Of a stretch of DNA of 35,608 nt, positions 28,430 through 31,357 are shown piece after piece (the stretch's first letter is position 1; every line of letters begins with the position of its first letter). A program made the translations under genes and the position numbers. The stretch covers positions 1-35,608 of the forward strand of contig JAQBTR010000001.1 of the NCBI GenBank assembly GCA_027624915.1, in the 5' to 3' direction. The notes below the pieces were generated by a model, which saw nothing but the letters and a program-made list of their open reading frames with translations, made no database searches and was not told the DNA's origin. Source of the DNA: a bacterium (lineage in GTDB: Bacteria > Patescibacteriota > Minisyncoccia > Ryanbacterales > GWA2-47-10b).

Positions 28430-28545
28430 TTGACTATATTATAGTGTAGGGGGTAGGTTACTTTTGTAGCTAGAACTTTGTACCCCAGGGCACCCTCTTT
28501 TCTGCTTCGCAGAATTTACCTTGTAGCAAAAAAGGAATGGAAAAA
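28430..28545 (+). other. Leader before the RibD-like gene
   Basis: TATTAT at 28437-28442 is a possible -10 without a good -35. The following sequence can pair GGGGTA with TACCCC (about 28450-28490), AGGG with CCCT, and TTCTGC with GCAGAA. It does not match the FMN riboswitch or another class I know, and it has no leader-peptide frame. Confidence 0.35.
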
Positions 28546-29451
28546 ATGCCAGAATACGAAATAGGCCTAAGAATAACTGGGGACTACCGAAAAGAGTTTC
28601 CAGATCTTCGAGTAGCAGAACTCCCCGAAATTCTCAAAAAAGAATACGGTGGAGACTTTGAGTTTTTGCCAGTTCCAGGGGACCGTCCCCTCGTTTACAT
28701 AAATTTTGTCATGTCACAGGGTGGAGTGTTCAATCTGAAAGATAATCCTGGTGGTGGGCCAATTAGTCAGGGCAACCAGGCTGATGCATTCGGTATGGCA
28801 CTTTTGCGCTCAAGTGCTGATGCGGTCATGGTTGGCTCAGGAACTCTCAATGGTGAGCCGAGTCACGTGTGGGACACTGACTTTATCTTCGACAACTTTC
28901 CTCAGATGAAGGGAAGGGAAGACTTACGCGAAGCTTTTGCTTCGTGGCGAAAGTCTCTTGGCAGGAAGCATGATACCCCTCCAACATATTTCATGACTAA
29001 CTCTGGAAAAATCGATTTTACAGCACAAGCATTTCAGGGTGAGGCTGGAGCCGGACCTTTTATAGTTACAGGTCGTCGTGGAGCGAGTCAGATTCAACAG
29101 GACATGCCCGACTTCCGTGACTTTGTCATCGCGAGCGACGAAGTTGGCAATCTCGATGAGAAGTCTATGCTTGAGACGATACGTCGTGAGCACGGAGTCC
29201 AAATGCTTTTACACGAAGGAGGGCGAGGCGTTGTTGATGCTCTTGCCAACAAGGGCCTTGTTGATGAATTTTTCCTGACCATAATTAATAAAAAGCCCGT
29301 TGGTGATATCGGCGAAAGAAATGCACAAAAACTTTTCCAGACGACTAATGGCGGGTATCCAACTTCAGCAAAAGTAATAACCAATCGACTCGATGCGACG
29401 GGGGAAGCAGAAATGCTCAATCTCGACTATCGAGGAGTACGAGGACTTTAG
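28546..29451 (+). CDS. RibD C-terminal / dihydrofolate-reductase-like reductase
   Basis: A 301-aa protein whose core matches the RibD_C/DHFR-like fold: NFVMSQGGVFNLKDN, the SxADAVMVGSGTL nucleotide-binding segment, and the MLLHEGGRGVVDALANKGLVDEFFLTI signature. The partner deaminase domain of bifunctional RibD is absent. It may reduce a pyrimidine or pterin substrate with NADPH; riboflavin versus folate role cannot be told from sequence. ATG 28546 is preferred because AAGGA lies nine bases upstream; ATG 28537 touches that site. An insertion (about 100-135) lengthens it beyond usual. GC-rich codons resemble leuA more than the pilus genes. Confidence 0.8.
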   Translation: MPEYEIGLRITGDYRKEFPDLRVAELPEILKKEYGGDFEFLPVPGDRPLVYINFVMSQGGVFNLKDNPGGGPISQGNQADAFGMALLRSSADAVMVGSGTLNGEPSHVWDTDFIFDNFPQMKGREDLREAFASWRKSLGRKHDTPPTYFMTNSGKIDFTAQAFQGEAGAGPFIVTGRRGASQIQQDMPDFRDFVIASDEVGNLDEKSMLETIRREHGVQMLLHEGGRGVVDALANKGLVDEFFLTIINKKPVGDIGERNAQKLFQTTNGGYPTSAKVITNRLDATGEAEMLNLDYRGVRGL

Positions 29452-29466
29452 GGTCCTCTTTTTATA
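29441..29466 (+). terminator. Terminator overlapping the end of the RibD-like gene
   Basis: GAGGAC / GTCCTC (29441-29446 with 29453-29458) with the stop codon in the loop, followed by TTTTTTAT. Confidence 0.8.
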
Positions 29467-29479
29467 TAATTTAGACAAA

Positions 29480-29565
29480 AAGCCCACAAACTTCTTCACT
29501 CATTCTCGCCTTGCTCCGAGGTTGAAGCTTGCAGCTTTAAAAACCATTCAGAAGTTTGTGGGCTT
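29480..29565. repeat. 16-bp inverted repeat enclosing 54 bp
   Basis: AAGCCCACAAACTTCT (29480-29495) and AGAAGTTTGTGGGCTT (29550-29565) are perfect complements. Inside is a smaller AAGCT-TGC-AGCTT hairpin. A TATAAT at 29465-29470 lies ten bases before the left arm, and it ends five bases before the leuA promoter. Candidate small structured RNA or insertion remnant. Confidence 0.7.
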
Positions 29566-29570
29566 CTTAC

Positions 29571-29598
29571 TTGACCAATTTCCTGGAAGGGATATATT
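29571..29598 (+). promoter_or_regulatory. Promoter of the leuA leader
   Basis: TTGACC (29571-29576), a 16-bp spacer and TATATT (29593-29598). The -10 ends six bases before the leader-peptide ATG at 29605, so the leader peptide itself would be read from a leaderless mRNA. Confidence 0.7.
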
Positions 29599-29604
29599 GA
29601 AGAC

Positions 29605-29670
29605 ATGATTAAATCTCTTCTTCTGGGGCTCCTCCTTGCCACCGACTGTGGAAGATTTACTCGTGCCTAG
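29605..29670 (+). CDS. leuL: leuA leader peptide (21 aa, Leu-rich)
   Basis: ATG 29605 to TAG 29668-29670 encodes MIKSLLLGLLLATDCGRFTR plus a final Ala. Six Leu codons cluster at positions 5-7 and 9-11 (CTT CTT CTG GGG CTC CTC CTT). It lies between the promoter and an intrinsic terminator in front of a 2-isopropylmalate synthase gene, the classic layout of a leucine attenuator. Pairing of CTTGCCAC with GTGGAAG (29635-29654) makes a 1:2 hairpin. GTGGAAGATTT (29648-29658) can instead pair with AAGTCCTCCAC (29695-29705) as antiterminator. Stalling at Leu codons would free the second strand and allow leuA transcription. Confidence 0.85.
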   Translation: MIKSLLLGLLLATDCGRFTRA

Positions 29671-29694
29671 TTGCAACTCCAAATAGATACAAGC

Positions 29695-29723
29695 AAGTCC
29701 TCCACTCCGGAGGACTTTTCTGT
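29695..29723 (+). terminator. leuA attenuator terminator
   Basis: Perfect 9-bp stem AAGTCCTCC / GGAGGACTT (29695-29703 with 29709-29717), loop ACTCC, then TTTTCTGT. The 5' arm is also the target of the antiterminator pairing from within the leader ORF. Confidence 0.88.
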
Positions 29724-29747
29724 CCCTTAACAATTGAGGGTGGTGAC

Positions 29748-31334
29748 ATGATTGAACTACGACGATCTCATATTGATATATTCGATACGACTCTTCGTGA
29801 TGGCGAACAAGCTGGGCATCAGATGAGCCCAGATACCAAACTTGCAATTGCACATCGTTTGGCAGATATTGGCGTCAATGTAATTGAGGCTGGATTTCCC
29901 AGTTCTTCTCCTACAGATTTTGGAGCGGTTGAGGCAATCGCACGCGAAGTCCGCGACCCAATTATTACATCCCTTGCACGGATAGTTCCTGGAGACATTG
30001 AGCCCGCATGGCGTGCGATTGAGCATGCGGCACGCCCGCGAATTCATGTATTTGCGTCTACCAGCCCCATACACATGGAGAAAAAGCTGCGCATGACTCC
30101 TGACGAGGTTCTTGCGAGAACCGGGGAGGCTGTGCGTCTTGCTAAGTCGTATTGTGATGATGTTGAGTTCTCTCCGGAGGATGCAACACGAACCGAGCCC
30201 GAGTTTTTGGCGACTATCGTGAAGCTCGCGATTGCCGAAGGGGCTCAAGTCATCAACATACCCGACACAGTAGGTTATATTGTGCCACACATGTTCGCGC
30301 GGCTTCTCAATAATCTTCTGGCTCGCGTGCCAGAGCTCGATCCAAACCACGGAACTCGCACGCTTAGTGTTCATTGTCATAATGATCTTGGTAATGCTGT
30401 TGCCAACACACTCGTTGGCGTCATGTATGGTGCACGTCAAGTTGAGGGATGTTTTGTCGGTATTGGTGAACGCGCCGGCAATGTCGCACTCGAGCAAGTA
30501 ATTATGAACATTAAGATTCATGGCCAAGATGGCGACTACTACTCTGGATTTGAAACCGGAATTGATACCACACAACTTGTGCCGTTGTGTCAATTTATCT
30601 CTGGTGCGATTGGCTATCCAATTCCGCTTCATCAGTCAATTATTGGAGACGGTGTGTTTATGCATAGCTCTGGCATTCATGCCGATGGTGTGCGCAAGGA
30701 TGCGGGCACATACGAAATTATGAGTCCAGCGTCGGTTGGACACGGCACGGCAAAGCCCAAGCTCGTGACTCATATGGGAAGAGGCGGCATCGCCGGATAT
30801 CTCGAAGGGCTTGGGTACAAGGATGGCGATTCACTAGCCGTTGAAATATACCCACACTTCATTGCCCTTGCTGGCGTAAAAGGCGAGCTCACGGCAGAAG
30901 ACATGCACATGCTTGTTCAAGAGGTTCATGCACGAGACGAGGCACTACGGAGCAATCTTTTTCATTTTCCGGATGTATACTCAATAGATTTTCGTCCCAA
31001 TTGGGCAAGAGTTCGCATTAAGAGAAATGAAGATGTGTTTTATGGCGTATCCAATGGAAGAGATGGTGTTGTGAGTGCTGTTATGCTCTCCATCCAGAAT
31101 GCTCTTCATGCACATGGCGTTTCAATTGCACATAACATTACACTCGATGACTATAGAGTTGAAAAAGGTGGGGGTGGGCCAGAAGCAAATGCATGGACAA
31201 TTGTTAAGCTTCGCCACGGTGACAATATTGGTATGGCGCGAGCTGGCGACACTGATGTTGTTGTAGCATCTGCCAAGGCATACCTGGCGGCCATCAACAA
31301 TCTCATCCACCACCCGTTTACTATCAATAGCTAG
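29748..31334 (+). CDS. leuA: 2-isopropylmalate synthase
   Basis: A 528-aa enzyme that condenses acetyl-CoA with 2-oxoisovalerate in the first step of leucine synthesis. The TIM-barrel part carries the metal and substrate residues: D13 in FDTTLRDGEQAG and H209/H211 in SVHCHNDLGNAVANT, with the HMGL signature VEGCFVGIGERAGN. The communication segment has HQSIIGDGVFMHSSGIHADGV, and the C-terminal LeuA dimer domain (about 390-528) is present, so leucine feedback inhibition is expected. ATG 29748 has a good site (GAGGGTGG). No other leu or ilv gene is in the window. A related acyl-transferring synthase, such as citramalate synthase, cannot be excluded, but the Leu-rich leader supports leucine. Confidence 0.93.
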   Translation: MIELRRSHIDIFDTTLRDGEQAGHQMSPDTKLAIAHRLADIGVNVIEAGFPSSSPTDFGAVEAIAREVRDPIITSLARIVPGDIEPAWRAIEHAARPRIHVFASTSPIHMEKKLRMTPDEVLARTGEAVRLAKSYCDDVEFSPEDATRTEPEFLATIVKLAIAEGAQVINIPDTVGYIVPHMFARLLNNLLARVPELDPNHGTRTLSVHCHNDLGNAVANTLVGVMYGARQVEGCFVGIGERAGNVALEQVIMNIKIHGQDGDYYSGFETGIDTTQLVPLCQFISGAIGYPIPLHQSIIGDGVFMHSSGIHADGVRKDAGTYEIMSPASVGHGTAKPKLVTHMGRGGIAGYLEGLGYKDGDSLAVEIYPHFIALAGVKGELTAEDMHMLVQEVHARDEALRSNLFHFPDVYSIDFRPNWARVRIKRNEDVFYGVSNGRDGVVSAVMLSIQNALHAHGVSIAHNITLDDYRVEKGGGGPEANAWTIVKLRHGDNIGMARAGDTDVVVASAKAYLAAINNLIHHPFTINS

Positions 31335-31357
31335 GCACGCACCTAGCTATTTTATTT
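31327..31357 (+). terminator. Terminator of leuA
   Basis: ATAGCTAGG / CCTAGCTAT (31327-31335 with 31342-31350), then TTTATTTGTT. The leuA stop codon lies in the left arm. Confidence 0.9.

Follow-up and report, generated by a model that had tools for sequence, protein, structure and literature searches.

A predicted leucine attenuator in front of an orphan leuA-like gene and its recurrence across a bacterial phylum

The leuA locus and its leader

The window, by which we mean the whole stretch of 35,608 nucleotides that was analysed, belongs to a genome of 0.84 Mb that is 98.6% complete. Table 1 lists the features around its leuA-like gene, the only LeuA that a family search returned in this genome. 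The original prediction had described a promoter, a 21-aa leader with six Leu codons, a 1:2 hairpin, an antiterminator and a 9-bp intrinsic terminator in front of the gene, and each of these elements was recovered, in that order. Because leuA is closed by a terminator-like hairpin of its own, and another one ends the upstream gene encoding a RibD_C domain, we consider it to be monocistronic. Its neighbours in the window are unrelated genes.

Table 1. Features of the leuA locus in the window, and related loci and genomes referred to in the text.
Feature	Position	Strand	Remarks
Terminator-like hairpin of the upstream RibD_C-domain gene (28537-29451)	29441..29463	+	separates the RibD_C gene from the leuA unit
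Sigma-70-type promoter-like site, TTGACC-16-TATATT	29571..29598	+	consensus match only, 10/12 positions
Leader peptide ORF, MIKSLLLGLLLATDCGRFTRA	29605..29670	+	21 aa; six Leu codons (codons 5-7 and 9-11)
Segment 1, 5′ arm of the 1:2 hairpin	29610..29618	+	from folding
Segment 2, partner of segment 1 or segment 3	29648..29659	+	from folding; 1:2 core uses 29650-29659
Segment 3, partner of segment 2 (antiterminator) or segment 4 (terminator)	29695..29705	+	from folding
Segment 4 (29709-29717) with the T tract; forms the intrinsic terminator together with segment 3	29709..29721	+	from folding
leuA-like gene	29748..31334	+	528 aa; HMGL-like, HCS_D2 and LeuA_dimer domains; catalytic motifs intact
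Terminator-like hairpin closing the leuA unit	31326..31351	+	computed from sequence
Tandem LeuA-like genes of G804	L170 1186-3036; L161 820-2670 region	reverse	genome without LeuC/aconitase
Leader-controlled LeuA, first samples			n = 11: G000, G315, G372, G588, G688, G614, G440, G691, G639, G660, G512
Leader-controlled LeuA, second class			n = 9: G740, G804, G845, G885, G940, G996, G1020, G1041, G1047

Five promoter-like sites were observed in the region, against 3.4 expected from shuffling, and a site comparable to the promoter of the leuA leader lies 6–18 nt upstream of the start codon in nine of 11 homologous leaders. As only 6 nt separate the -10 box from the leader ATG, which lacks a Shine-Dalgarno sequence, the leader mRNA is probably leaderless or nearly so, and the leader peptide would probably be translated from it in this form. 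Among 15 gene starts checked in the window, most had no clear Shine-Dalgarno sequence within 20 bases upstream. Two repeats were also seen at the locus. A 19-nt inverted repeat (29477–29495 and 29550–29568, 95% complementary, 54 nt apart) lies just 5′ of the leuA promoter, and 11 of 12 bases are common to the start of the leader (29602–29613, GACATGATTAAA) and the start of leuA (29745–29756, GACATGATTGAA).

In the antiterminator, positions 29648–29658 face 29695–29705 in the register that had been proposed for it, and 10 of the 11 positions pair, the exception being an A-C mismatch. In the terminator, positions 29695–29703 pair with 29709–29717 at all nine positions and are followed by TTCT; two T residues of the tract are taken up by the stem, which leaves the T tract short. 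Segment 3 is common to both structures, which are thus mutually exclusive, and the pair is located 30 nt 5′ of the leuA start codon. The fold of the 131-nt leader region has a z-score of -3.1, with none of 200 shuffles equally stable, and a Leu-rich mini-ORF (6/8) appears in five of 2000 shuffles of the leader sequence. The 2:3 energy of the window leader taken alone is unexceptional (13 of 500 shuffles were as good and two of ten swaps were better). No Rfam leader family matched the window at its gathering threshold, and the best sub-threshold match was Phe_leader, over its full length, with 23.3 bits against a gathering score of 55 and an E-value of 0.066.

The encoded protein combines the catalytic motifs of LeuA with an HMGL-like catalytic and a LeuA_dimer allosteric domain, scoring 284 bits for PF00682, 51 bits for PF08502 and 49 bits for PF22617. 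Like the 2-isopropylmalate synthase LeuA (structure 3rmj), it contains the motifs DTTLRDGEQ, HMEKKL, FSPED, HCHND, GERAGN and SGIH and a LeuA_dimer domain. Unlike in that enzyme, the allosteric domain is divergent, with GGGGPEANA replacing GGTDAQG. No LeuA found is more than 44% identical to the protein, whose matches among the searched contigs are mostly proteobacterial LeuA. Since the protein scores below the NCBIfam equivalog cut-offs (509 vs 532 for NF002086 and 474 vs 598.7 for TIGR00973), its substrate is uncertain; that it acts as a LeuA-like catalyst is a prediction from its sequence.

The families of LeuC/aconitase (PF00330), LeuB/Iso_dh (PF00180), IlvD (PF00920) and class-IV aminotransferase/IlvE (PF01063) had no match in the window genome, and the same searches found matches in 13–14 of 14 control genomes. 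Therefore, the LeuA of the window is an orphan enzyme. As a single-gene unit in a genome with no LeuC or LeuB match, the locus differs from the proteobacterial leu operon, in which a leuABCD-type operon is controlled. The earlier suggestion of a working leucine branch, or of keto-acid chain elongation, does not agree with these searches.

Folding with the ribosome on the leader

The free RNA 3′ of the ribosome was folded with the ribosome set at each leader codon. With the ribosome on codons 5–11, the computed probability of the 2:3 pairing was 0.98 before segment 4 had been transcribed; at codon 11 with a larger footprint (reaching 15 nt) it was 0.78. From codon 14 onward 2:3 was blocked and 3:4 reached a probability of 0.97, and the completed RNA without a ribosome formed 1:2 at 0.90 and 3:4 at 0.97. 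These three computed fold states are those of the classical trp/leu attenuator. The two alternative structures that folding had been expected to reveal were thus obtained, with the position of the ribosome on the control codons selecting between them in the computation. When segment 4 is present and the ribosome stalled, the equilibrium still prefers 3:4 (0.54–0.89). Therefore, the switch must act during transcription, as in known attenuators.

In the mechanism that we propose, the ribosome would reach the leader stop codon when leucine is plentiful and mask segment 2, and the 3:4 terminator would halt transcription before leuA. When leucine is short, the ribosome would stall on Leu codons 5–11 and mask segment 1; 2:3 would then form before segment 4 is made, and leuA would be transcribed. 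Both the stalling and the termination are predicted here from the folding model.

Attenuation is a textbook mode of control of complete amino-acid pathways. In leuL-leuABCD of E. coli and Proteobacteria, a Leu-rich leader peptide, alternative 1:2, 2:3 and 3:4 pairings and an intrinsic terminator precede leuA, as they do in the window. However, the E. coli attenuator controls the complete leucine pathway, whereas the leuA of the window stands alone in a genome without a LeuB or LeuC match, and the leaders of the two systems share neither sequence similarity nor an Rfam family at gathering score. The beta-proteobacterial leuA genes fetched for comparison also bear Leu-rich leaders. At these loci (L006, L021, L034, L039, L046 and others) the ending LLLAGLLLRGRAR, LLLRPART recurs, and often no perfect-stem terminator was detected. 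The LEU element and the leucine leaders of Actinobacteria are similar in that leuA is preceded by an ORF containing consecutive Leu codons (PMC1262725). The LEU element is described as a pseudoknot involving the Shine-Dalgarno sequence of leuA and having no classical terminator (PMC1262725), in contrast to the terminator/antiterminator pair of the window leader. In Staphylococcus aureus, a Leu-codon leader peptide attenuates the branched-chain amino-acid genes of the ilv operon (PMC5794164); that attenuator controls a biosynthesis operon, whereas the one in the window would control an orphan enzyme.

Leaders before LeuA across the phylum

Among the sampled genomes, nearly all of them 0.5–1.4 Mb in size at high completeness, LeuA-like genes are rare: they occur in one of 54 near relatives, 11 of 384 genomes of the class and 14 of 393 of a second class. 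Across the phylum, 35 of 380 genomes had a LeuA-like gene at the E-value applied, a count that includes CimA-like and weak matches. L091, L093 and L094 were CimA-like and were excluded as citramalate-synthase-like; L093 has a terminator and neither a Leu nor an Ile leader. In 20 genomes sampled from the phylum, a Leu-rich leader with a terminator was found upstream of a LeuA-like gene. The leader ending GLCF-[ST]-MVEA is common to most of the nine second-class genomes, and the spacing from leader stop to terminator is 22–37 nt in all leaders compared. Most leaders lack a Shine-Dalgarno sequence and start 6–13 nt past a -10-like box; many of the leuA genes downstream have one.

The 2:3 pairing proved to be specific to each leader. 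In eleven leaders, own pairings had a mean energy of -18.3 kcal/mol versus -12.1 kcal/mol for swapped ones (0 of 20,000 permutations), and 12 mutually unalignable leaders retained complementarity between leader and own terminator (0 of 50,000 permutations). In nine alignable leaders from another class, 93% of cells stay paired, with compensatory changes. Covariation in the alignable family is modest, as two pairs changed on both sides and 83 of 500 shuffles reach that number; the comparison of own with swapped complementarity is the stronger test.

The element might be the coincidence of a pyrimidine-rich, Leu-encoding stretch with an ordinary terminator nearby, or the ORF might specify a small secreted hydrophobic peptide. 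Indeed, MIKSLLLGLLLA resembles the start of a signal peptide, and CU-rich RNA readily yields Leu codons, as seen in the 100 Leu-rich mini-ORFs of any context within 431 kb of strand sequence scanned around LeuA genes. In this control scan, however, a Leu-rich mini-ORF followed by a terminator 12–45 nt past its stop was found almost only directly 5′ of LeuA. The permutation tests and the codon-by-codon switch also argue against coincidence, and so do the tandem LeuA-like genes of G804, of which the first lies behind the Leu leader MVSYIAKHLDLLLSLKGLCFSMVEA and the second behind the Ile leader MSKQIIDTIIIIPEARG, each leader being followed by a terminator. AU-rich Ile codons on a paralogue with the same architecture are hard to explain by composition and suggest control by the cognate amino acid. 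A chance origin of the element thus seems hardly credible.

LeuC (PF00330) is missing in 18 of the 20 leader-controlled genomes (9/11 in the first samples and 9/9 in the second class), and only G614 and G691 have a real LeuC. A PF00330 match in G660 was rejected, as it is AcnA. IlvD is present in one of 11 leader-controlled genomes and missing in the other 10. In comparison, the 15 genomes with a LeuA but no leader contain LeuC in 11 cases and IlvD in 10, with IlvD missing in five. Fisher's test of 11 versus 15 genomes gave p-values of 0.015 for LeuC and 0.005 for IlvD, which ignore kinship and are subject to genes missed in MAGs. Leaders are apparently absent from genomes having the pathway, and LeuA without a leader is mostly found in genomes with LeuC and IlvD. 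Relatives whose leuA lacks a Leu leader, named beforehand as evidence against attenuation, do exist, mostly as full-pathway genomes, but orphan-LeuA relatives mostly retain the leader. Four genomes (G729, G056, G200 and G233) carry an orphan LeuA with neither a leader nor LeuC or IlvD; therefore, an orphan LeuA is not always leader-bearing. In G729 (L156 7709–7999, leuA strand), a 96-aa ORF directly 5′ of leuA contains the LeuA-like fragment AFCHEAGIHQ and is perhaps the remnant of a duplicated gene.

Attenuators normally control complete amino-acid pathways, and G691 combines a leader with LeuC, LeuD and IlvD. The element in the window could accordingly regulate a leucine pathway that is in fact complete, with its other genes located elsewhere or its enzymes unrecognised. 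We find this improbable in view of the four families unmatched in a 98.6% complete genome despite working controls, of the LeuC gap repeated in 18 of 20 leader-controlled genomes, and of the unrelated neighbours and the own terminator of leuA.

In the tree, leader-controlled LeuA is scattered over the phylum, with several orphan LeuAs on long branches. Grouping the leader-controlled LeuAs as a single clade was unsupported (seven changes on the tree, at least three of them forced by starred branches), and the genes occupy unrelated contexts. The absence of LeuA from 53 relatives of the window genome's family, order and class, the long branch of the window LeuA (1.6 changes per column) and a somewhat high GC (0.49 vs 0.40–0.47) are all compatible with a laterally acquired cassette that brought its own control and is now a decaying relic. 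Nevertheless, the ORF, catalytic motifs, promoter, attenuator and both terminators are intact, the nearest LeuA is only 44% identical, and the combination of orphan and leader recurs in 18 genomes from several families, where decay would not preserve pairing in unalignable leaders. A relic is thus rather unlikely. The transfer proposed at the outset likewise draws no support from the tree, in which no donor stands out, or from the scatter over the phylum.

In G372 (L092 1258–2052), a stand-alone LeuA allosteric domain (190 aa, PF08502 E-value 6e-20) lies behind a Leu-rich leader and a terminator, and a LeuA search of this genome found no catalytic LeuA elsewhere. This raises the question whether the LeuA-like protein is mainly leucine-binding or regulatory and not an enzyme. 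However, the window protein and most others retain the catalytic motifs, and the opposite loss is seen in several homologues under leader control, which at about 390 aa have the catalytic domain but no allosteric domain; we regard a mainly regulatory protein as unlikely. G315 (L090 1165–1405) has two successive Leu-rich mini-ORFs 5′ of one LeuA-like gene, with a terminator after the first, and in the LeuA-like protein of this genome the catalytic motif LRDGEQ is replaced by LREAAQ.

Possible role of the orphan enzyme

Taken as a whole, the data are best explained by a ribosome-mediated attenuator that senses charged tRNA-Leu and controls a single-gene LeuA-like unit, in a genome where the later enzymes of the leucine pathway were not found; we put the probability of this reading at about 85%. 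At the level of sequence, this supports the original view of a leucine-responsive ribosome-mediated attenuator that is unusual in a reduced genome. For this phylum, the papers searched contained nothing relevant on attenuation, leucine or isopropylmalate and no example of amino-acid-specific transcription attenuation, and the phylum-wide use of attenuators on an orphan first enzyme appears to be unreported in them. The attenuator is well supported as an instance of a known mechanism; what seems new is this phylum-wide use, together with the apparent lack of leaders in genomes having the pathway.

Because the later steps are missing and the pairing of leader and LeuA recurs across the phylum, the enzyme probably has a function other than supplying leucine synthesis in the same cell. 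We tentatively suggest that under leucine shortage the cell might make 2-isopropylmalate or a related acid as an end product, from a scavenged keto acid and acetyl-CoA, whose further conversion a host or neighbouring cell, for example, could complete. Our analysis found no sign of product export, of a partner cell or of a source of keto acid. More speculative still is the idea that, in this phylum, reduced bacteria that depend on a host have retained no branched-chain enzyme but the first committed one, under a cognate attenuator, and release its product for a partner to finish, the cognate amino acid being Leu, plus Ile in one tandem pair. If this is true, starvation would trigger an outsourcing of the remaining steps, and the feedback-controlled step of the partner itself would be bypassed.

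That an attenuator has been maintained in front of an enzyme without a pathway, and built anew from unrelated sequences, implies that this enzyme is useful in itself when leucine is short. The organisms concerned are thought to obtain amino acids from others, and amino-acid-specific transcription attenuation can now be predicted in their phylum. The finding thus offers a concrete, testable entry into the response of host-dependent ultra-small bacteria to amino-acid shortage.
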